NCBI GenBank assembly: GCA_001542995.1
Contig: LFLA01000014.1
Location: 124,001 to 188,000 of the forward strand
Direction of reading: 5' to 3'
Length of the DNA stretch: 64,000 bases
From: Nitrospina sp. LS_NOB
Lineage (GTDB): Bacteria; Nitrospinota; Nitrospinia; Nitrospinales; VA-1
Both the position numbers and the translations under genes were made by a program. This document shows positions 13,588 through 24,323 of this stretch, piece by piece. The stretch's first letter is position 1, and each line of letters starts with the position of its first letter. The notes below the pieces were generated by a model, which saw only the letters and a program-made list of their open reading frames with translations, did not search any database and was not told where the DNA came from.

Positions 13588-14316
13588 ATGAGAATAATAC
13601 CAGCAGTAGATATAAAAGAAGGAAGGTGTGTGCGCCTTGCCCAGGGAAAAGCGGACCAGGAAACCGTTTATTCTAATGATCCCGTCTCGATGGCCAATCA
13701 TTGGGATGAAGAAGGGGCGCAGACTATTCACGTTGTCGACCTTGATGGCGCCTTCCAGGGCTCACCCATCAACGCCGAAATTGTAAAAAACATTATCTAC
13801 AGCAGCTCTGTAGATATACAAGTCGGAGGGGGAATCCGAACTCTTGAAACCATCGAAGCGTATGTTAAAGCTGGCGCATACCGGATTATTTTGGGTACCG
13901 TTGCTCAGAAGGAACCGGAGTTTGTGGAAGAAGCTTGTCGACGTTTCCCCGATAAAATTATTGTCGGCATTGATGCCCGGGACGGTTTAGTGGCTGTGAA
14001 AGGGTGGGTGGAAGTTTCAGAACAAAAAGCTATCGACCTCGCCCGGAAAATGAAGGGATATGGAATTGCCGGGTTTATCTTCACTGATATCAGCCGCGAC
14101 GGCATGCTTCAGGGTCCTAATCTGGAAAGCATCAAGGAGTTTGCCGAGTCCGCGCAATTACCCGTGATCGCGTCAGGGGGGGTGAGCCGTCTGGAAGACA
14201 TCACAAACCTGGCCAAGCTGGAGTCCTATGGTGTTGAAGGCGTGATCATCGGCAAAGCTCTATACGACAAAACCCTTTCCTTCAAGGAGGCGCGAGACGT
14301 TCTTCATGCTGGCTAA
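13588..14316 (+). CDS. hisA: ProFAR isomerase (HisA)
   Basis: 242 residues. Isomerises ProFAR to PRFAR in histidine biosynthesis. A (beta/alpha)8 barrel with the expected phosphate and catalytic segments: [15 protein letters not shown] (Asp near residue 8), [33 protein letters not shown] (second Asp), [17 protein letters not shown]. Starts at ATG 13588 and overlaps hisF by 11 bases, so the two are translationally coupled. Confidence 0.95.
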
Positions 14317-15145
14317 ACGCATCATACCCTGTCTGGATGTCAAAGATGGCCGCGTGGTCAAGGGGGTTAACTTTGTCAATCTCCGCGATGCCGGCGACCC
14401 GGTTGAAATCGCTTCTGCCTACGAACTGGAAGGTGCCGACGAACTCACCTTTTTAGACATCACCGCTTCACACGAAAAACGCGATATTATTCTGGATGTG
14501 GTGGCCCGCACTGCCGAAAAAGTGTTCATGCCTTTGACGGTTGGCGGAGGTGTACGCACTCTGGATGATATTCGAAGTCTTTTGAAAGCCGGCGCTGATA
14601 AAGTCGCCATCAACACTGCCGCCGTCAAGGACCCGGATTTCGTACAACGCGCGGCAAAACGTTTTGGCAGTCAGTGCATTGTTGTCGCCATTGATGCCAA
14701 AGAGGTGCAATCTTCCCGGTCTCAACCCATACATCCCGAATGGGCTTCAGAGCATCCGGAACTGCTACTGGAGCAATCCGATTCACCTCCCGCCTGGGAA
14801 GTCTACACGCATGGAGGAAGAAACCCGACCGGAATTCATGTTCAAAGATGGGCCCGAAAAATGGACGCTTATGGAGCGGGAGAAATTTTGCTCACCAGCA
14901 TGGATCGCGATGGCACCAAAGTCGGATACGACATCGAACTCAACAAAACGGTTTCTGAATCGGTCACCATTCCCGTTATCGCCTCAGGAGGAGCGGGAAC
15001 CCTTGAGCACTTATATGAAGGTATTGTAAAAGGAAAAGCCTCCGCCGTGCTGGCCGCTTCCATTTTTCACTTTAAAGAATTCACCATTCAGGAAACCAAG
15101 GCTTACCTGCAATCCAAAGGTGTGACGGTTAGACCCGCTATTTGA
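14306..15145 (+). CDS. hisF: Imidazole glycerol phosphate synthase, cyclase subunit (HisF)
   Basis: 279 residues. Cyclises PRFAR with ammonia from HisH to give IGP and AICAR. Motifs: [18 protein letters not shown] (catalytic Asp), [37 protein letters not shown] (second Asp), PVIASGGAG. HisF is usually ~255 residues. The extra length is an insertion at about residues 135-162, between VVAIDAK and WEVYTHGGR, rich in Ser, Pro, Glu and His, in the barrel face that normally carries only a short loop. The 3' end overlaps the convergent ldcA-like gene by 8 bases. Confidence 0.94.
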
Positions 15146-16137: not shown

Positions 16138-16581
16138 ATGATTTCTGTTGCCGCTATCATTCAAGCCGGAATGGGGCCTGCCCGGTTTCCCGGTAAAAGC
16201 CTGCGCCCGATTGCGGGCCTACCCCTGCCGGAGCATATCATTATTCGTTTAAAACAGGTGCCGGAAATTGCCGGATTCATTGCACAAGTCTTTGCCGCCA
16301 TCCCCTGGCATAGAAATGCAGCCGGACTCCAGTTTGTTTACTCTAGACATTTTCAGGGACAGGTAAAAAACACCGGGAATACCTGTTGTCCGCAATGTCG
16401 GAAACTTCTGCTCGAAAGAATCGGGTTTCAGGTCTTAAGCCTTCATTTAAAAGGGTACCGTTGCCCCTTCTGTAATGTTATGGTACCTTGTCGGCGGGTT
16501 ATAATTTTGTTCATAAAACACCACCCCGATCATGGCCGTTGGTATAAAAGCAGCCTTCGGTACTATTTCTCGCAAAATTAA
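16138..16581 (+). pseudogene. Chimeric gene debris: start of a SpsF-like cytidylyltransferase joined to the end of an AmmeMemoRadiSam radical SAM protein
   Basis: The first ~42 residues (VAAIIQAGMGPARFPGKSL, PIAGLPLPEHII) match the nucleotide-binding start of SpsF/CMP-KDO-synthetase-like cytidylyltransferases. From about residue 55 (IPWHRN, LQFVYSRHFQGQ, NTCCPQCRKLLLERIGFQVL, RCPFCN) the sequence is the zinc-binding tail of the AmmeMemoRadiSam-system radical SAM enzyme, with degenerate ends. Both families are normally 230-350 residues, so this is a deletion scar joining two genes, not a working protein. Confidence 0.7.
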
Positions 16582-16635
16582 CATTCCTGAATAGTATTTT
16601 AGCAAACCCCGATTTAAGCATTAAAAGAATCACTT

Positions 16636-18216
16636 ATGACTGAAGACCAAAAGAAAAAACTGGAACGACAGCTTTGGAATATCGCCAATGAATTACGCGG
16701 GAAAATGGCAGCCGATGAATTTCGCGACTATATTCTTGGATTCATTTTCTACAAATACCTGTCTGAAAAGCAACATCTTTATGCCAACGAGTTACTCGAA
16801 ACCGAAAACGTCAAAAATTATACTGATGTAGCCGACGAGGACGATATCGAAGCGATCAAAGAAGAGTCTTTGATCAAGCTCGGGTATTTTTTGCGCCCTG
16901 GCGAGTTGTTCGCCGCACTCACCCAAAAGGGCAATGCGGATGTTGAGGAGGAAAGCAATTTCATCCTCGAAGACCTGCAAGGCATTCTTAATTCGATTGA
17001 GCAAAGCACGATGGGCACGGAGAGCGAGGACGATTTTAACCAGCTTTTCGAAGATATGGATCTGAGCAGCACCAAGCTGGGCCGCAGTGTCGAGGCCAGA
17101 AATACGCTGATTGCCAAGGTTCTTTCCCACCTGAATAAAATCGACTTCGCGCTCGAAGATTCTGAATCCGATATTCTGGGCGATGCCTATGAATACCTGA
17201 TTGCACAATTTGCATCCGGTGCCGGTAAAAAAGCCGGTGAATTCTACACCCCGCAGCAGGTTTCCAAAATCCTCGCCAAAATTGTGACGCTCGATAAAAC
17301 ACGGATTAAATCGGCCTATGACCCCGCATGTGGCTCCGGCTCTCTATTGTTGCGCATTGCCCGCGAGGCCGATGTCGGGGAATTCTTCGGGCAGGAGCTG
17401 AACCGCACCACCTACAACCTCGCCCGCATGAACATGATTTTGCACGATGTGCATTTCAGCAAGTTTGATATCCGCCAGGAAGACACGCTGGAACACCCGC
17501 AACATCTGGACGAGCGGTTTGACGTGGTGGTGGCCAATCCGCCGTTTTCTGCCCGGTGGAAGGGCAAGGATAATCCTCTCAATGAAACCGACGACCGGTT
17601 CAGCCAGTATGGCGCCCTGGCACCGACCACCAAGGCGGATTTCGCCTTTGTGCAGCATATGATCCACCAGTTGAACGACAGCGGCACCATGGCCGTGGTT
17701 TTACCGCATGGCGTATTATTCCGTGGCGCGGCTGAGGGCAAAATCCGCCAATACATCATTCAAGAGCAAAATTATCTGGATGCGGTGATCGGCCTGCCTG
17801 CCAACCTGTTTTACGGCACCAGCATTCCGGCCTGTATTCTGGTGTTCAAGAAATGCCGTGTGCATGACGACGATATTCTATTCATTGACGCCAGCCAACA
17901 TTTCGAGAAGGTCGGCAACCAGAACGCGCTGACCGATGAGCACGTTGCCAGGATTGTCGAGACCTATCAGAACCGCGAGAATATAGACAAATACGCCTAT
18001 GCCGCGCCGCTGAGCGAGATTGCCGAGAACGACTATAACCTCAACATTCCACGCTATGTGGATACCTTTGAGGAGGAAGCACCGGTGGATGTCGAAGCGG
18101 TCGCGGCGGAGCTACAAGCACTGAAAAGCGATATGCAGGCCACCGATGCCACTATCGCCGGATTTTGTAAGGAGCTGGGAATATCCAGCCCGTTTCAGGT
18201 ATCGGTGAGCGAATGA
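16636..18216 (+). CDS. hsdM: Type I restriction-modification DNA methyltransferase (HsdM)
   Basis: 526 residues. N6-adenine methyltransferase of the HsdM2S complex. Helical HsdM N-domain (LERQLWNIANELRGKM, FRDYILGFIFYKYLSE), then SAM motif I DPACGSGSLLLRI and catalytic VVANPPFSARW (NPPF). The C-terminal helical tail would contact HsdS. Starts at ATG 16636; the stop overlaps the hsdS ATG (ATGA). First gene of a six-gene same-strand locus reaching 23.7 kb. Confidence 0.95.
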   Translation: MTEDQKKKLERQLWNIANELRGKMAADEFRDYILGFIFYKYLSEKQHLYANELLETENVKNYTDVADEDDIEAIKEESLIKLGYFLRPGELFAALTQKGNADVEEESNFILEDLQGILNSIEQSTMGTESEDDFNQLFEDMDLSSTKLGRSVEARNTLIAKVLSHLNKIDFALEDSESDILGDAYEYLIAQFASGAGKKAGEFYTPQQVSKILAKIVTLDKTRIKSAYDPACGSGSLLLRIAREADVGEFFGQELNRTTYNLARMNMILHDVHFSKFDIRQEDTLEHPQHLDERFDVVVANPPFSARWKGKDNPLNETDDRFSQYGALAPTTKADFAFVQHMIHQLNDSGTMAVVLPHGVLFRGAAEGKIRQYIIQEQNYLDAVIGLPANLFYGTSIPACILVFKKCRVHDDDILFIDASQHFEKVGNQNALTDEHVARIVETYQNRENIDKYAYAAPLSEIAENDYNLNIPRYVDTFEEEAPVDVEAVAAELQALKSDMQATDATIAGFCKELGISSPFQVSVSE

Positions 18217-19424
18217 CACAGACACAAGAACATAACGTGCCTGCCTTGCGGTTTCCTGAGTTTAGCGGGGAGTGGGAAAGCAATACTATTGCCGATGTGG
18301 CTGAAGTAAAAGGAGGCAAACGATTACCTCTGGGAAATTCACTATCTGATATAGATACAGGCTTCCCGTATATTACTGTTTCGGATTTTGAAAACGGTTC
18401 CGTAAGTCTCGAAAAAATTAAGTTTGTTCCGAAAAGCGTGCAACCATCAATTGCACGATACACGATTTCATCGGACGACATTTATATTTCGGTTGCTGGC
18501 ACTCTTGGATTGGTTGGAATAATCCCACAAAAACTGGGTGGAGCAAACCTAACAGAGAATGCGGATAAGCTTACTAAAATCACCTTAAATCGTGATTTTC
18601 TACTCCAATTTCTAAAATCAGAACGATTGAAAAAACTGATAAAATCTGTGCAAACCAACAATGCACAACCCAAACTTTCTATTGCTGCAATTAAAAAGAT
18701 GAAAGTTGGTTTCCCAGACGCCCCCGAGCAACAAAAAATCGCCGATTTCCTATCCTCGGTCGATAGCAAAATCGAACAACTCAGCAAGAAAAAAGCCCTT
18801 TTGGAGCAGTACAAAAAAGGCGTGATGCAAAAGCTCTTTTCGAGGGAGCTGCGCTTCAAAGACGCGAACGGCAATGATTTTCCTGAGTGGGTGGAGAAGC
18901 GGCTCTGTAAAATGGCAATAATTGTTATGGGAACTTCTCCTAAATCTGAATCCTACAATAATCATTCTGAAGGGTTGCCCCTTATTCAAGGAAACGCAGA
19001 TATCAGGGATAGAAAATCAGCACCTAGGGTTTTTACATCTGTTGTTACAAAAGAGTGTCTACCTGCGGACATTCTGTTGAGTGTGAGAGCACCGGTTGGT
19101 GAAGTTTCAATTTCAACTCGCCATGCTTGCATTGGGAGAGGTATATCTGCTGTTCGAGCTACCCAGAGCAATGTTCAAGAATTTTTGTATCAATTTCTTC
19201 TTTGGTATGAGCCGCGTTGGAGACGAATTTCTCAAGGTAGCACTTTTGAATCTGTAAATTCAGATGACATTAAGCAATTAAAATGCCCAAACCCAAGCCA
19301 ATTAGAACAACAAAAAATTGCTGATTTCCTCTCAAGTATTGACGATAAAATCGACCTTATTACCACCGAGCTCACCCAAGCGCAAGTTTTCAAAAAAGGC
19401 TTGCTGCAACAGATGTTTGTTTAA
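18213..19424 (+). CDS. hsdS: Type I restriction-modification specificity subunit (HsdS)
   Basis: 403 residues. Two target-recognition domains (about 10-165 and 220-365), each followed by a conserved helical spacer with the same phrase, EQQKIADFLSSVDSKIEQL and EQQKIADFLSSIDDKIDLI, the expected internal duplication. It determines the bipartite DNA target. The 3' end (TELTQAQVFKKGLLQQM) is repeated in degraded form at 20054-20117, after the next gene. Confidence 0.95.
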   Translation: MTQTQEHNVPALRFPEFSGEWESNTIADVAEVKGGKRLPLGNSLSDIDTGFPYITVSDFENGSVSLEKIKFVPKSVQPSIARYTISSDDIYISVAGTLGLVGIIPQKLGGANLTENADKLTKITLNRDFLLQFLKSERLKKLIKSVQTNNAQPKLSIAAIKKMKVGFPDAPEQQKIADFLSSVDSKIEQLSKKKALLEQYKKGVMQKLFSRELRFKDANGNDFPEWVEKRLCKMAIIVMGTSPKSESYNNHSEGLPLIQGNADIRDRKSAPRVFTSVVTKECLPADILLSVRAPVGEVSISTRHACIGRGISAVRATQSNVQEFLYQFLLWYEPRWRRISQGSTFESVNSDDIKQLKCPNPSQLEQQKIADFLSSIDDKIDLITTELTQAQVFKKGLLQQMFV

Positions 19425-19433
19425 TGGTGGACT

Positions 19434-20054
19434 ATGGAGAAATTAAAAAAAGAAATACATAGGGTAAAGCGGCATAATCTGGAATATTACCAAAGCCACC
19501 TCACATTGATTGAGGGTTACATCGTAGAAAAACCTGATATATCCATTGAAACATGCAAAGCATTGATTGAGGGAATATCAAAGCTTGCCCTTCATTTACT
19601 CGCACAAGAACCCATAGATTCACATAATAATGCAGATCTTTCTGACCTCTTTAAAAGATCGCTTTCTGAATTACAAAAAGGGCGCGGCTACTCAGATGTT
19701 TTTTTGGTGAAAAGATTAGGGTCAGTTGTACAGTATATTGGTGAAATCCGAAACTATCACAGCGACATTAGTCATGGGCGCGCTTCTCTTAAAGATCAAG
19801 TAAGTGACGCTGATTTTGCAGAATTAATCATAGGGGTGACTGATAATCTTTGCACCTATATGCTTCGCCGATTAGATATGCTGAGCGAGCAAGAACTCCT
19901 CTATGAAGACAATCCAGAATTTAACGATTCTCTCGACGAACAACACCCTTTAGAGGGCCGTGTTCTCTATAGCAAGGCTCTTTTTGACCAAGAATTTGAA
20001 ACATACGAATTAGAGTTAGGTGATTATATAATGGAAAGTGATACAGAAGAGTAA
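19434..20054 (+). CDS. Abi_C-like (abortive infection C-terminal) domain protein inside the RM locus
   Basis: 206 residues, starting 9 bases after hsdS. The central segment GEIRNYHSDISHGRASL followed by ADFAELIIGVTDNLCTYML resembles the Abi_C domain pattern (LRN...HG..., then an Ala/Glu-rich helix). The N-terminal ~60 residues are helical and the C-terminus acidic. A phage-defence accessory is the likely role, inferred from the domain and its position between hsdS and hsdR. Base composition is more AT-rich than hsdM/hsdR, suggesting a separate origin. Confidence 0.65.
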   Translation: MEKLKKEIHRVKRHNLEYYQSHLTLIEGYIVEKPDISIETCKALIEGISKLALHLLAQEPIDSHNNADLSDLFKRSLSELQKGRGYSDVFLVKRLGSVVQYIGEIRNYHSDISHGRASLKDQVSDADFAELIIGVTDNLCTYMLRRLDMLSEQELLYEDNPEFNDSLDEQHPLEGRVLYSKALFDQEFETYELELGDYIMESDTEE

Positions 20055-20117
20055 TTGCCACCGAACTGCGCCAAGCGCAAGCTTTCGATAAGGCTTGCTA
20101 CAACAAATCTTTATATA
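20054..20117 (+). pseudogene. Vestigial duplicate of the hsdS 3' end
   Basis: About 64 bases match hsdS 19360-19424 at roughly 80 percent: ccgagctcacccaagcgcaa in hsdS against ccgaactgcgccaagcgcaa here, then ttgctgcaacag against ttgctacaacaa, ending in ttt-ata-taa where hsdS has ttt-gtt-taa. Translated in two frames it reads TELRQAQAFDK then GLLQQIFI. It shows that the Abi_C-like gene lies between two copies of the hsdS terminus. Confidence 0.75.
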
Positions 20118-20142
20118 ATACTTGAGGGAAACGGAGTATAAA

Positions 20143-20547
20143 ATGACGGATCAGGACATTAGATGGCAACAACGTTTTTCAAATTATAAGCGGGCCTTGG
20201 GACAACTTTCCAAGTTCATGCAAACGGAGGAGCTTAACGACTTGGAGAAGCAGGGGCTTATTCAGGCTTTTGAATATACGCATGAACTGGCTTGGAAAAC
20301 TTTGAGCGACTTTTTAAAATATAAGGGTAATGCCGAAATTTACGGCTCTAAAGATACAACACGAGGGGCCTTCGCTCTTGACCTCATCGAAAATGGCAAT
20401 GTCTGGATGGATATGATTGATAGTCGCAATATGACGTCTCACACCTACAATGAATCCGTCACAGAAGAAATCATTGAAAGCATCACCTATGATTACTATC
20501 CCGCTTTTGGCGCGTTAGAAACAAAACTGGAAGATCTCATCACATGA
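20143..20547 (+). CDS. HEPN-domain toxin-like protein (HI0074/HepT family)
   Basis: About 134 residues; ATG 20143 is chosen because ggag lies 7 bases upstream and the family starts there. An all-helical HEPN protein of the nucleotidyltransferase-substrate-binding (HI0074) family. The active motif RNMTSHTY fits RX4HXY, as in HepT ribonuclease toxins neutralised by MntA through adenylylation of the Tyr. The stop overlaps the ATG of the MNT-HsdR gene by the ATGA arrangement, so toxin and fused antitoxin are coupled. Confidence 0.85.
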   Translation: MTDQDIRWQQRFSNYKRALGQLSKFMQTEELNDLEKQGLIQAFEYTHELAWKTLSDFLKYKGNAEIYGSKDTTRGAFALDLIENGNVWMDMIDSRNMTSHTYNESVTEEIIESITYDYYPAFGALETKLEDLIT

Positions 20548-23500
20548 ATTCGGGTTTAAGCGCCAGTAATACTCAAAAAATCTACGGAGTTTTTCAAAAC
20601 TTTGGTCAAATAGATTCATGTCTATTATATGGCTCACGCGCAATGGGAACTTATAAGGATGGCTCAGATATTGATCTAACCTTAAAGGGAGCAAACCTTG
20701 ATTTGAATATCTTGAAGCGGGTTACTAATGCGCTTGATGATTTACTGTTACCCTATCATTTTGATTTGTCTATTTATGCGAAATTGCAAAATCAGGATAT
20801 TATCGACCATATAAATCGCGTTGGCGTACCATTTTATCAAAAAGAAAAGCCAGTAAAAAGCAAGGCTACACAATCAGAATTAGAGCTAGAAAATAACCTA
20901 ATCGCTCAACTGCAAACATTGGGCTATGAAAAAGTACCTATTGAAGATGAAGATGCACTTTTAATCAATCTTAAAAAGCAACTCGAAAAACATAACAGGA
21001 CTCTTCTCTCAGATCTAGAATTCCGCCAAATCCTCAATAAACTGGCGAAGGGAAACATCTTTGAAAAAGCCAAAATCCTGCGTGATAGGGTCGATTATAT
21101 CAAAGACGATGGTGAGACCGGCTATATTGAGCTGATCGATCAAATCCACTGGTGCAAAAACCAATACCAGGTGACGCATCAGGTCACGATGAAAGGCAAA
21201 TACGCCAACCGCTATGACGTGACGATTCTGGTCAACGGCCTGCCCCTGGTGCAGATTGAGCTAAAGCGCCGTGGTCTGGAAATGAAAGAAGCGTTCAACC
21301 AGACCAACCGATACCACCGGCATTCGTTTTCGGCAGGCTATGGGCTGTTTGGCTATATCCAGCTTTTTGTGATCAGCAACGGGGTCAACACCAGGTATTA
21401 CGCCAACAATCCGGTCAACAAACGCGATTTCAAGCAGACGTTTTTCTGGTCAGACAAGGACAACAGGAAAATTACTCAGCTTAGCGAATTTGCCGAAGCG
21501 TTTTTGGAGAAATGCCAGCTTTCAAAAATGATCACTAAATATGTGGTGCTGAACGAAAGTTCCACCACCTTGATGGTGTTGCGCCCGTATCAATATTATA
21601 CGGTTGAAGCCATTGTTGAACAGGTGCGCAATACCGGGAAACACGGCTATATCTGGCACACGACCGGATCAGGCAAAACCCTCACCTCTTTCAAGGCCGC
21701 ACAGATTCTCACGCAATCGCCCCAGGTGCATAAGGTGGTGTTTGTGGTCGATAGAAAAGACCTCGATTACCAGACCATCAAAGAGTTCAACAGCTTTTCC
21801 GCAGGTTCAGTGGACGCCACCAACAACACCCGGAAACTGGTGGAACAGTTCGCCGATGATACAAAGCTTATTGTAACCACCCTGCAAAAGCTCAACACCG
21901 CAATCAGCAAGACCGTGTATCTTGCCGGCATGTCAAGGCTGCAAGACAAGCGCATGGTATTCATCTTTGACGAATGCCACCGCAGCCAGTTTGGAGACAC
22001 CCACAAACGCATCAAGGCGTTTTTTCATAACGTGCAGATGTTCGGCTTTACCGGCACGCCGATTTTTCCTGCCAATGCCGCCAGGAATGCGCTTGGAAAA
22101 CGCACGACCAAAGACCTGTTTGGCGAATGTCTGCATAAGTATGTGATTACGGATGCTATCCGCGATGAAAACGTGCTGAAGTTTTCAGTCGAGTATATCC
22201 GCACAGTGAAACAAAAGGACAGTGTGGCCGATATTGAAGTCGAGGCGATTGATACGGCGGAAGTGATGGAAGCCCCGGAGCGGCTCAACAACATCACCGA
22301 CTACATCATTGCCAACCATAGCCGGAAAACCCACTCACGAGAATTTAATGCTATTTTTTGTGTTTCAAACATCAAAACTCTGATGGCCTATTATGAGTTG
22401 CTGAAACAGAAAAAAGATGCTGAAAAGCACAACCTGCGGATCGGGGCGATTTTCTCCTACCAGGCAAACGAAGAAGACAGGGACGCGGACGGAACCGACA
22501 GCGATGATATGCCCGATGACAGCAAGCCGATCAACACGCACAGCCGCGAGAAGCTCGATGAGTATATCGACGACTACAACGCGATGTTTGGCACCAATTA
22601 TTCGACCGATAATTTCTATGGCTATTACAAGGATATCGGCAAGCGTGTGAAGACGCGTCAGGTTGATATTCTGCTGGTCGTGAATATGTTTTTAACTGGG
22701 TTTGATAGCAAAGCTCTCAATACCATTTATGTGGACAAGAACCTCAAATATCACGGGCTGATACAGGCTTATTCCCGCACCAACCGGATCATGGGACAAA
22801 GGAAGTCCCAAGGGAATGTCGTGTGTTTTCGTAACCTGAAACCGGCCACCGATGAGGCGATTGAATTATTTGCCAATAAGGATGCCATCGAAGAGATCAT
22901 TCTGGCACCCTACGAAACCTACCTGAAACGCTTTGCCGATGCCGTTGTGAACCTGCAAACGATCACACCCACCGTGGACAGTGTTGATGGCCTGCCCACC
23001 GAAGACGATGAAGCAAAATTCATTCAGGCTTTCCGCGAGATTATCCGCCTGAAAAACGTACTCGACTGCTTCACCGAGTTCAGCTTTGACGATCTCCCTA
23101 TGGATGAACAGCTTTTTGCTGACTACCGCAGCAAATACCTGGACCTCTACGACAAGGTTCGAAGCGAAAACGAGAAAGAAAAGGTTTCAATCCTCGATGA
23201 CATTGATTTTGAGCTTGAGCTGATCCGCAGAGATAAAATCAATGTGAGCTACATCATTGCGTTGCTGCAAAACCTGCAAGATACGACACCCGCCAATCTG
23301 GAAAAACAACATAAAATAATTTTGGCAATGCTTGATACTGAAACGCAACTTAGAAGTAAAAAGGAATTAATTGAGAAGTTCATAGCTCACCATTTTCCCA
23401 ACATACCCAAAGGAGGGGATATTGGCGAAGAATTCGAAAGCTACTGGAATGCGGAAAAACGACAAGCCATCGAAGAGCTGAGTACCGCCGAAGGCCTGGA

Positions 23501-23681
23501 CCTGGAAGGGTTGCAAAAGGTCATAGACGACTATTTGTTCACTGATAAATCCCCCATGCGGGATGATGTGATCGGAATCATGAGCAAGCGTCCTGCCCTC
23601 AAAGAACGCCGCACGGTTTCTGAACGCATTATCGACAAAATAAAATCCTTCGTGGAAACATTTATTGATGGTATTGATTAA
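20544..23681 (+). CDS. hsdR: MNT nucleotidyltransferase domain fused to type I restriction endonuclease HsdR
   Basis: 1045 residues. Residues 1-~105 are a minimal nucleotidyltransferase (MNT): LLYGSRAMGTYKDGSDIDLT keeps GSX10DXD intact, with a third Asp in HFDLSIYAK. A linker (EKPVKSKATQSE) leads into a complete HsdR: nuclease core LVQIELKRRG (E-x-K), Walker A TTGSGKT, Walker B FIFDECHRSQ, motif III FTGTP, helicase motifs SNIKTL, FLTGFDSK and YSRTNR, then a C-terminal helical region. Usual HsdR begins at about LELENNLIAQL, so ~110 residues are extra. No stop separates the parts. The fusion would put antitoxin (HepT-modifying) activity on the restriction subunit. Confidence 0.92.
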   Translation: MNSGLSASNTQKIYGVFQNFGQIDSCLLYGSRAMGTYKDGSDIDLTLKGANLDLNILKRVTNALDDLLLPYHFDLSIYAKLQNQDIIDHINRVGVPFYQKEKPVKSKATQSELELENNLIAQLQTLGYEKVPIEDEDALLINLKKQLEKHNRTLLSDLEFRQILNKLAKGNIFEKAKILRDRVDYIKDDGETGYIELIDQIHWCKNQYQVTHQVTMKGKYANRYDVTILVNGLPLVQIELKRRGLEMKEAFNQTNRYHRHSFSAGYGLFGYIQLFVISNGVNTRYYANNPVNKRDFKQTFFWSDKDNRKITQLSEFAEAFLEKCQLSKMITKYVVLNESSTTLMVLRPYQYYTVEAIVEQVRNTGKHGYIWHTTGSGKTLTSFKAAQILTQSPQVHKVVFVVDRKDLDYQTIKEFNSFSAGSVDATNNTRKLVEQFADDTKLIVTTLQKLNTAISKTVYLAGMSRLQDKRMVFIFDECHRSQFGDTHKRIKAFFHNVQMFGFTGTPIFPANAARNALGKRTTKDLFGECLHKYVITDAIRDENVLKFSVEYIRTVKQKDSVADIEVEAIDTAEVMEAPERLNNITDYIIANHSRKTHSREFNAIFCVSNIKTLMAYYELLKQKKDAEKHNLRIGAIFSYQANEEDRDADGTDSDDMPDDSKPINTHSREKLDEYIDDYNAMFGTNYSTDNFYGYYKDIGKRVKTRQVDILLVVNMFLTGFDSKALNTIYVDKNLKYHGLIQAYSRTNRIMGQRKSQGNVVCFRNLKPATDEAIELFANKDAIEEIILAPYETYLKRFADAVVNLQTITPTVDSVDGLPTEDDEAKFIQAFREIIRLKNVLDCFTEFSFDDLPMDEQLFADYRSKYLDLYDKVRSENEKEKVSILDDIDFELELIRRDKINVSYIIALLQNLQDTTPANLEKQHKIILAMLDTETQLRSKKELIEKFIAHHFPNIPKGGDIGEEFESYWNAEKRQAIEELSTAEGLDLEGLQKVIDDYLFTDKSPMRDDVIGIMSKRPALKERRTVSERIIDKIKSFVETFIDGID

Positions 23682-23699
23682 GGGGTTTATCCCAAGACA

Positions 23700-23825
23700 G
23701 AGACCTTTCATAACCCGAGATTCTTCGTCACCTTGTTCCTCAGAATGACAAAATGGCCCAGTATTGTCATTCTGAACGCAGTGAAGAATCTCGCTTTTCT
23801 GTTTTATCGACTTATGCAAAGGTCT
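23700..23825. mobile_element. MITE-like element, copy 1 (about 126 bp)
   Basis: Ends are inverted repeats: gagacctttcataa on the left and ttatgcaaaggtct on the right. The interior carries the attctgaacgcagtgaagaa type of repeat. A 7-bp direct repeat caagaca flanks it (23693-23699 and 23826-23832), probably the target duplication. Sits just after hsdR. Confidence 0.75.
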
Positions 23826-23940
23826 CAAGACAGGCACAAACCCGTTTATCTGTGTCTTTTTCTAAAAATTTTTCGGGGTTGCCCTTGGATAATGCCTGAA
23901 AAGTGCTGTCACGGGAGGCACACGAAAGAGTCGTCCAGGC

Positions 23941-24126
23941 AGTTATAAGCAGGCCCGTCTGGTCGAGCATTTTGTCGCAGGAACAACCGCACGAACAGCA
24001 ACCGGTTTTTGCGGGGTGAACCGCAAAACGCTGGCGCGTAAATTCAATGGTGTCCCAAAAGCCCGATTCGGGCTATATTTGAAGAAATGTGAGCGGCGTT
24101 TTAATAACAGTGACCTGCCAAGCTAA
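23941..24126 (+). pseudogene. IS1595-family transposase remnant
   Basis: An open fragment reads YKQARLVEHFVAGTTARTA then FCGVNRKTLARKF, typical of the N-terminal helix-turn-helix of IS1595 transposases. It jumps directly to a C-terminal-like LKKCERRFNNSD before the stop at 24124-24126, so the catalytic domain is deleted. It marks the right border of the RM locus. Nothing further is recognised in 24127-24323. Confidence 0.65.
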
Positions 24127-24323
24127 TTATCGTAATTAAAACAATTGGTAGATAGTATTTGATCTGTTTTGCCGGGTCAGTCCAAATTTTTAATTGCAAG
24201 CCATGAATACCCTGTGATAGTTTTTCCGTACGTAAATTTCCTGCATGATGGTTCACTTCAAGTTTTCTGCTTTACCAAAGTTAAAGACCCCTTGGAAAGA
24301 TTACAGTCATATGGAGAATCGGG

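Follow-up and report, generated by a model that had tools for sequence, protein, structure and literature searches.

How is the toxin of a toxin–antitoxin (TA) pair kept silent when its antitoxin forms part of a restriction enzyme? The question is raised by a 64,000-nucleotide stretch of the Nitrospina sp. LS_NOB genome (contig LFLA01000014.1, positions 124,001 to 188,000; here called the window), in which an operon spanning 16271–24183 encodes a type I restriction–modification (RM) system, a HEPN protein, and a fusion of an MNT nucleotidyltransferase domain, the predicted antitoxin, to the restriction subunit HsdR. We describe the fusion as an RM-embedded HEPN toxin whose antitoxin has been relocated onto the restriction subunit, joining in one polypeptide two layers of defence, namely DNA restriction as the first line and the switch that keeps an RNA-cutting toxin off. 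The reading that we tentatively favour, at a little under even chances, is that a type VII HEPN–MNT pair was inserted in a type IC operon and its MNT was fused to hsdR, tying the silencing of HEPN to MNT:HsdR and thereby guarding restriction.

A first-pass annotation, made from the sequence alone, had described a 1045-residue protein in which an MNT domain with an intact GSX10DXD motif precedes a full HsdR, and the domain searches bear this out. The open reading frame (ORF) at 20544–23681 is a single frame of 1045 residues with no internal stops. Pfam identifies Polbeta (PF18765) at residues 11–101 (1.2e-10) and HSDR_N at 110–289 (3e-41), followed by SWI2/SNF2 (349–569), T1R_D3 (600–764) and EcoR124_C (785–1040; 1.5e-72). 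In a search against solved structures, residues 6–101 match the Legionella MNT 8xeh (4e-22) and the remainder matches EcoR124I HsdR 2w00 (617 bits, 4.6e-184), whose nuclease, motor and C-terminal domains are homologous to those of the window HsdR but which has no N-terminal MNT. The MNT motif, GSRAMGTYKDGSDID at residues 30–44, is intact (G30, S31, D42 and D44), and the third aspartate is D74. On the HsdR side the motifs D225...E239-L-K241, GSGKT and DECH are present; these motifs are intact, and the enzyme may be active in restriction. All the EcoR124-type HsdR domains are found, with hsdM, hsdS and hsdR together in one operon, which is a type IC layout.

When the MNT domain alone is aligned to 8xeh and 8xeo, the alignment stops at residue 101, which is where the Legionella MNT itself stops. 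HsdR has therefore been appended to an otherwise complete antitoxin, with no known interface element removed. An internal start yielding free HsdR was considered and set aside: the region near the junction has no in-frame ATG or GTG, only TTG codons at residues 75, 81 and 126, so HsdR is probably translated solely as the MNT fusion.

The first-pass annotation had also reported, correctly, an RX4HXY HEPN protein overlapping the next gene by ATGA. The motif is RNMTSHTY (R95, H100 and Y102), and the 3′ end of the gene (ORF 20143–20547) overlaps the ATG of the fusion at 20544 by 4 bp. An RX4HXY HEPN protein with an adjoining GSX10DXD MNT has both sequence hallmarks of a type VII HEPN–MNT system; the MNT of such systems stands alone, whereas here MNT and HsdR lie in one frame, in the window and in the second locus described below alike. 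The best sequence match for both window proteins is the Legionella pneumophila pair lpg2920–lpg2921 (8xdj, 8xeh), a type VII TA system (PMC11586414), and the HEPN protein matches 8xdj along its length (3e-43). The Legionella HEPN is a Mg-dependent RNase that forms a tetramer; its MNT, a short protein without the alpha-4 helix, binds this tetramer and AMPylates Tyr105 of HEPN (PMC11586414), the residue that aligns with Y102 of the window HEPN. The Legionella MNT is a free protein of 108 residues, whereas that of the window continues into a full HsdR inside an RM operon. In the Shewanella type VII pair MntA/HepT, MNT likewise adenylylates HEPN and blocks the RNase, with the same motifs as in the window (PMC7641770); however, HepT is a DUF86 protein and MntA relies on a long C-terminal helix for binding, which is missing from the HI0073/HI0074-like pair of the window. 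The pairing of a HEPN toxin with an MNT antitoxin that had been proposed thus stands, with the Legionella pair as closest homologue, but its HepT/DUF86 model does not: the HEPN protein belongs to PF08780/TIGR01987 (HI0074 type), and the MntA model matches the window MNT only weakly (20.8 bits against a cutoff of 60). The HEPN protein is predicted to be an RNase toxin, and by analogy with these pairs the MNT of this locus may AMPylate it.

The same gene order, hsdM–hsdS–HEPN–(MNT:HsdR), occurs at a second locus, L010 (JAJDBA010000315.1), at a different chromosomal site. L010 lies in G036, a metagenome-assembled genome (MAG) from another genus of the Nitrospinaceae, the family of the window genome (G000); both organisms are marine nitrite-oxidisers. 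The first-pass annotation had made its case depend on a relative carrying the same fusion, and L010 supplies one, 1042 residues long and 82% identical. An assembly error or frameshift as the source of the fusion is ruled out because an independent MAG carries it; the fusion is real, and is neither chance nor an assembly artefact. HEPN is 81% and HsdM 83% identical between the two loci, and M, R, HEPN and MNT all fall within 78–83%, while the HsdS proteins (18213–19424 in the window, 1361–2587 in L010) share only 34%. Specificity thus appears to switch rapidly around a stable M/HEPN/MNT/R core. The alignment of the MNT and HsdR domains is free of gaps as far as the junction, where the intervening sequence differs and is 2 residues shorter in L010, as expected for a true linker between two conserved domains. 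The ratios of nonsynonymous to synonymous substitution (dN/dS) are lowest in the HsdR nuclease region (0.03), followed by HEPN and HsdM (0.07 each) and MNT (0.11), although dS is saturated (1.3–2.1) and the absolute ratios are rough. Such low values indicate that purifying selection acts on MNT and on HEPN in the fused arrangement. The HEPN residues Q41, E44, R95, H100 and Y102 are kept at both loci, and the catalytic residues of HEPN and MNT are identical to those of 20-odd free HEPN–MNT pairs.

Both ancestral parts can be found separately. Free HEPN–MNT pairs with the same gene order occur at 20 other loci (L047–L066), with a 4-bp overlap in 15 of the 20. We considered whether such pairs are regular companions of RM systems; they are not, since L050 alone among these relatives has a neighbour that is weakly HsdM-like. 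Plain hsdMSR operons also occur, one of them on a Sulfitobacter plasmid, where HsdM is 77% and HsdR, over its full length, 75% identical to the window proteins. The Sulfitobacter HsdR begins MSTQTEQQLEDALIAQLETLGW, and the corresponding stretch of the fusion is KATQSELELENNLIAQLQTLGY. Free pairs and plain operons together indicate that an intact TA pair was inserted between hsdS and hsdR, that the MNT stop was lost, and that the join displaced the start of HsdR itself. The G+C content of MNT is 0.35, against 0.51 for hsdM.

A later exchange has probably reshaped the region upstream. HEPN is preceded by 88 bp of decayed sequence from an hsdS 3′ end, which aligns over 65 nt with the 3′ end of the window hsdS (score 35; best score among shuffled sequences, 15). 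This remnant also matches the end of the L010 hsdS and its spacer, and DNA homology to L010 starts within it, at 20063. In L010, HEPN follows hsdS directly and the Abi_C ORF is not there. It therefore seems that recombination swapped the present hsdS and Abi_C ORF into the operon, upstream of an older, L010-like hsdS–HEPN junction. The Abi_C ORF (19434–20054) is a second possible HEPN effector within the operon.

How, then, might the toxin be controlled? As the N-terminus of HsdR, the MNT domain would silence HEPN by AMPylating Tyr102 and by binding, and the ATGA overlap would couple translation of HEPN to that of MNT:HsdR. Since neither a separate antitoxin nor an HsdR start codon is evident, silencing would depend on production of MNT:HsdR, and the toxin would be kept silent only while the cell makes it. 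If HsdR were titrated, sequestered or disabled, whether by a phage anti-restriction protein, by shut-off or by loss of the locus, newly made HEPN would remain unmodified, cleave RNA and halt the cell. Restriction would then be guarded much as PrrC guards EcoprrI, also type IC, which is a functional precedent (PMC3874165; PMC12707154). As PrrC does, the window HEPN would be a ribonuclease inside a type IC hsd operon that RM components keep silent and that fires when restriction fails. PrrC, however, combines an ABC-ATPase with HEPN and is kept in check through non-covalent sequestration by the RM complex, whereas the window HEPN is a small PF08780 protein of 134 residues without an ABC domain, and its silencing would be enzymatic, through an antitoxin domain on HsdR. 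A 2013 survey finds recurrent linkage or fusion of HEPN genes to subunits of restriction enzymes, both nucleases and helicases, proposes a PrrC-like release, and suggests that R-M subunits restrain linked HEPN RNases (PMC3710099). If the coupling is functional, anything that disables restriction would disarm the antitoxin too, making this a guard system; the survey's proposal would then also have a simple two-gene form, testable in E. coli.

With silencing coming from MNT:HsdR alone and HEPN translated just upstream, control of the toxin is tied to the supply of HsdR, and possibly to its state. A stronger version is that MNT:HsdR AMPylates new HEPN continually and that its capacity to do so varies with whether HsdR is assembled, translocating DNA or bound by an anti-restriction protein, such that a phage disabling restriction triggers an RNA-degrading shutdown. 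We regard this version as possible but doubtful; if true, it would be an RM guard acting through covalent modification and not sequestration.

Several points weigh against a guarding role. We infer the release of the toxin on loss of HsdR only by analogy. AMPylation is covalent, and toxin already modified would stay silent after MNT:HsdR is lost, so release needs newly made toxin or a de-AMPylase. In Legionella, low ATP leads to loss of the labile MNT and so to free toxin; de-AMPylation is a further source that the authors propose (PMC11586414). The type IC HsdR of EcoR124I is reported to be insensitive to ClpXP (PMC3874165), which makes ClpXP degradation a weak candidate for the trigger. The MNT is N-terminal, so that a truncated HsdR would be expected still to carry the antitoxin. 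AlphaFold2 predictions for both fusions had a pLDDT (a per-residue confidence score) of 33 and were discarded as uninformative. Finally, just two loci are known, from one bacterial family, and the coupling may be incidental rather than selected. The interpretation offered in the first-pass annotation therefore survives in part: the domain calls, the intact motifs and the pairing of HEPN with its antitoxin hold, while the proposed trigger, loss of the restriction subunit, is weakened by ClpXP insensitivity and by the covalent nature of AMPylation. An abortive-infection back-up is still a reasonable inference, with direct precedent in PrrC/EcoprrI.

An incidental origin deserves most weight among the alternatives, although we consider it rather less probable than the guarding role. 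On this view a free HEPN–MNT pair entered the operon and the stop codon of MNT disappeared, leaving an ordinary antitoxin and an ordinary HsdR with no sensing, joined for as long as both halves are needed. The free pairs, the plain operons and the complete MNT domain agree with this, as does a linker that is short, hydrophilic and variable, and a single event common to two related genera would be enough, given that about 535 genomes hold no other fusion. However, the two halves have never been separated across a divergence that saturates synonymous sites, when a stop or a new start would easily split them; and silencing is tied to the dosage of HsdR whether or not this was selected. Unlikely, in our view, is that the module chiefly penalises loss of the locus or failed hsdR expression, making a mobile RM operon more stable through post-segregational killing instead of sensing phage inhibitors. 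HEPN–MNT is a classical TA module (PMC7641770, PMC11586414), and the operon occupies a different site in each of the two genomes and is missing from most relatives; but a covalently silenced toxin would be a poor killer after loss, an N-terminal MNT leaves many hsdR mutations unpenalised, and a separate MNT would serve equally. It is more improbable still that HEPN is now a substrate-binding or regulatory subunit through which MNT:HsdR adenylylates another target (for example an RM subunit) to control restriction. Many HEPN domains have become nucleotidyltransferase substrate-binding partners (PMC3710099) and HI0074 was first described as one (TIGR01987), but the RNase residues Q41, E44, R95 and H100 and the acceptor Y102 are intact at both loci and the HEPN dN/dS is as low as that of HsdM.

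The fusion is rare. It is present in 2 of 77 Nitrospinota genomes, and these are the only two among about 535 genomes sampled, in which large phyla such as Pseudomonadota are not demonstrably covered; every other MNT of this kind there is free, generally 100–160 residues long. In plasmids, 1176 records matched the combined MNT and HSDR_N query, none covering at least 80% of it, and a query with MNT alone in plasmids and phages gave only free MNTs among the matches listed. Pattern scans for MNT in genome and viral contigs, with patterns that were poor, returned few matches. The first-pass annotation knew of no described MNT–HsdR fusion, and we found none in the open-access literature, which alone was covered and is not proof of novelty; nor does the available part of the 2013 survey mention one (PMC3710099). 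The architecture is conserved and apparently undescribed, though its parts and general logic are already known.

The features of the operon are listed below; hsdM, hsdS and the Abi_C ORF are additions to what the first-pass annotation described.

Features of the window operon (positions in the window).
Feature	Position	Strand	Evidence
hsdM, type I methyltransferase subunit, 526 residues	16636..18216	+	PF02384 1.3e-111, TIGR00497 4.6e-137
hsdS, specificity subunit, 403 residues, two target recognition domains	18213..19424	+	PF01420, two stretches
Abi_C-domain ORF (HEPN-like, AbiJ-related), 206 residues, accessory	19434..20054	+	PF14355 3.8e-9; PADLOC AbiJ 1.6e-5
Decayed, frameshifted remnant of hsdS 3′ end, directly 5′ of HEPN	20055..20142	+	65-nt alignment to window hsdS
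HEPN toxin candidate, HI0074/NTase_sub_bind family, 134 residues from ATG, RX4HXY	20143..20547	+	PF08780 5.2e-43, TIGR01987 6.7e-27, 8xdj 3e-43
MNT domain (predicted antitoxin adenylyltransferase), fusion residues ~1–102	20544..20849	+	PF18765; 8xeh/8xeo 4e-24; GSX10DXD + D74
Linker, about 8 residues, in place of native HsdR start codon	20850..20873	+	Alignments to L010 and Sulfitobacter HsdR
HsdR moiety, type IC/EcoR124-like: PD-ExK nuclease, SF2 motor, C-terminal domain	20874..23681	+	PF04313, PF18766, PF22679, PF12008; 2w00 4.6e-184

Where the window has the RM operon, the congeners G002 and G003 have a flagellin cluster, between flanks that match those of the window (identities of 88.8% and 89.6% in G003). 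In G000 the SpsF-like gene is truncated (16138–16270) and no close flagellin was found, the single flagellin-like match having 39% identity, suggesting that the filament was lost when the RM operon replaced the flagellin cluster. The G002/G003 cluster also holds an SpsF-like cytidylyltransferase and an oxidoreductase. The operon of G036 is sited elsewhere; fragments of the flanking ABC gene lie together with flagellin gene fragments on another contig of that genome. Between G000 and G036, fragments of the flanking ABC transporter ATPase share 76–83% identity, about as much as the RM operon does (82%), so that ancient vertical inheritance and an old transfer are indistinguishable on these figures.

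Downstream of the operon, 23703–23800 contains a palindrome-like stretch, AGATTCTTC...CAGAATGACA / TGTCATTCTG...GAAGAATCTC, which resembles a small intergenic repeat and was not reported by the repeat search at 14 nt. Upstream, a HisF-like ORF of 279 residues (14306–15145) has an apparent internal insertion of about 34 residues.
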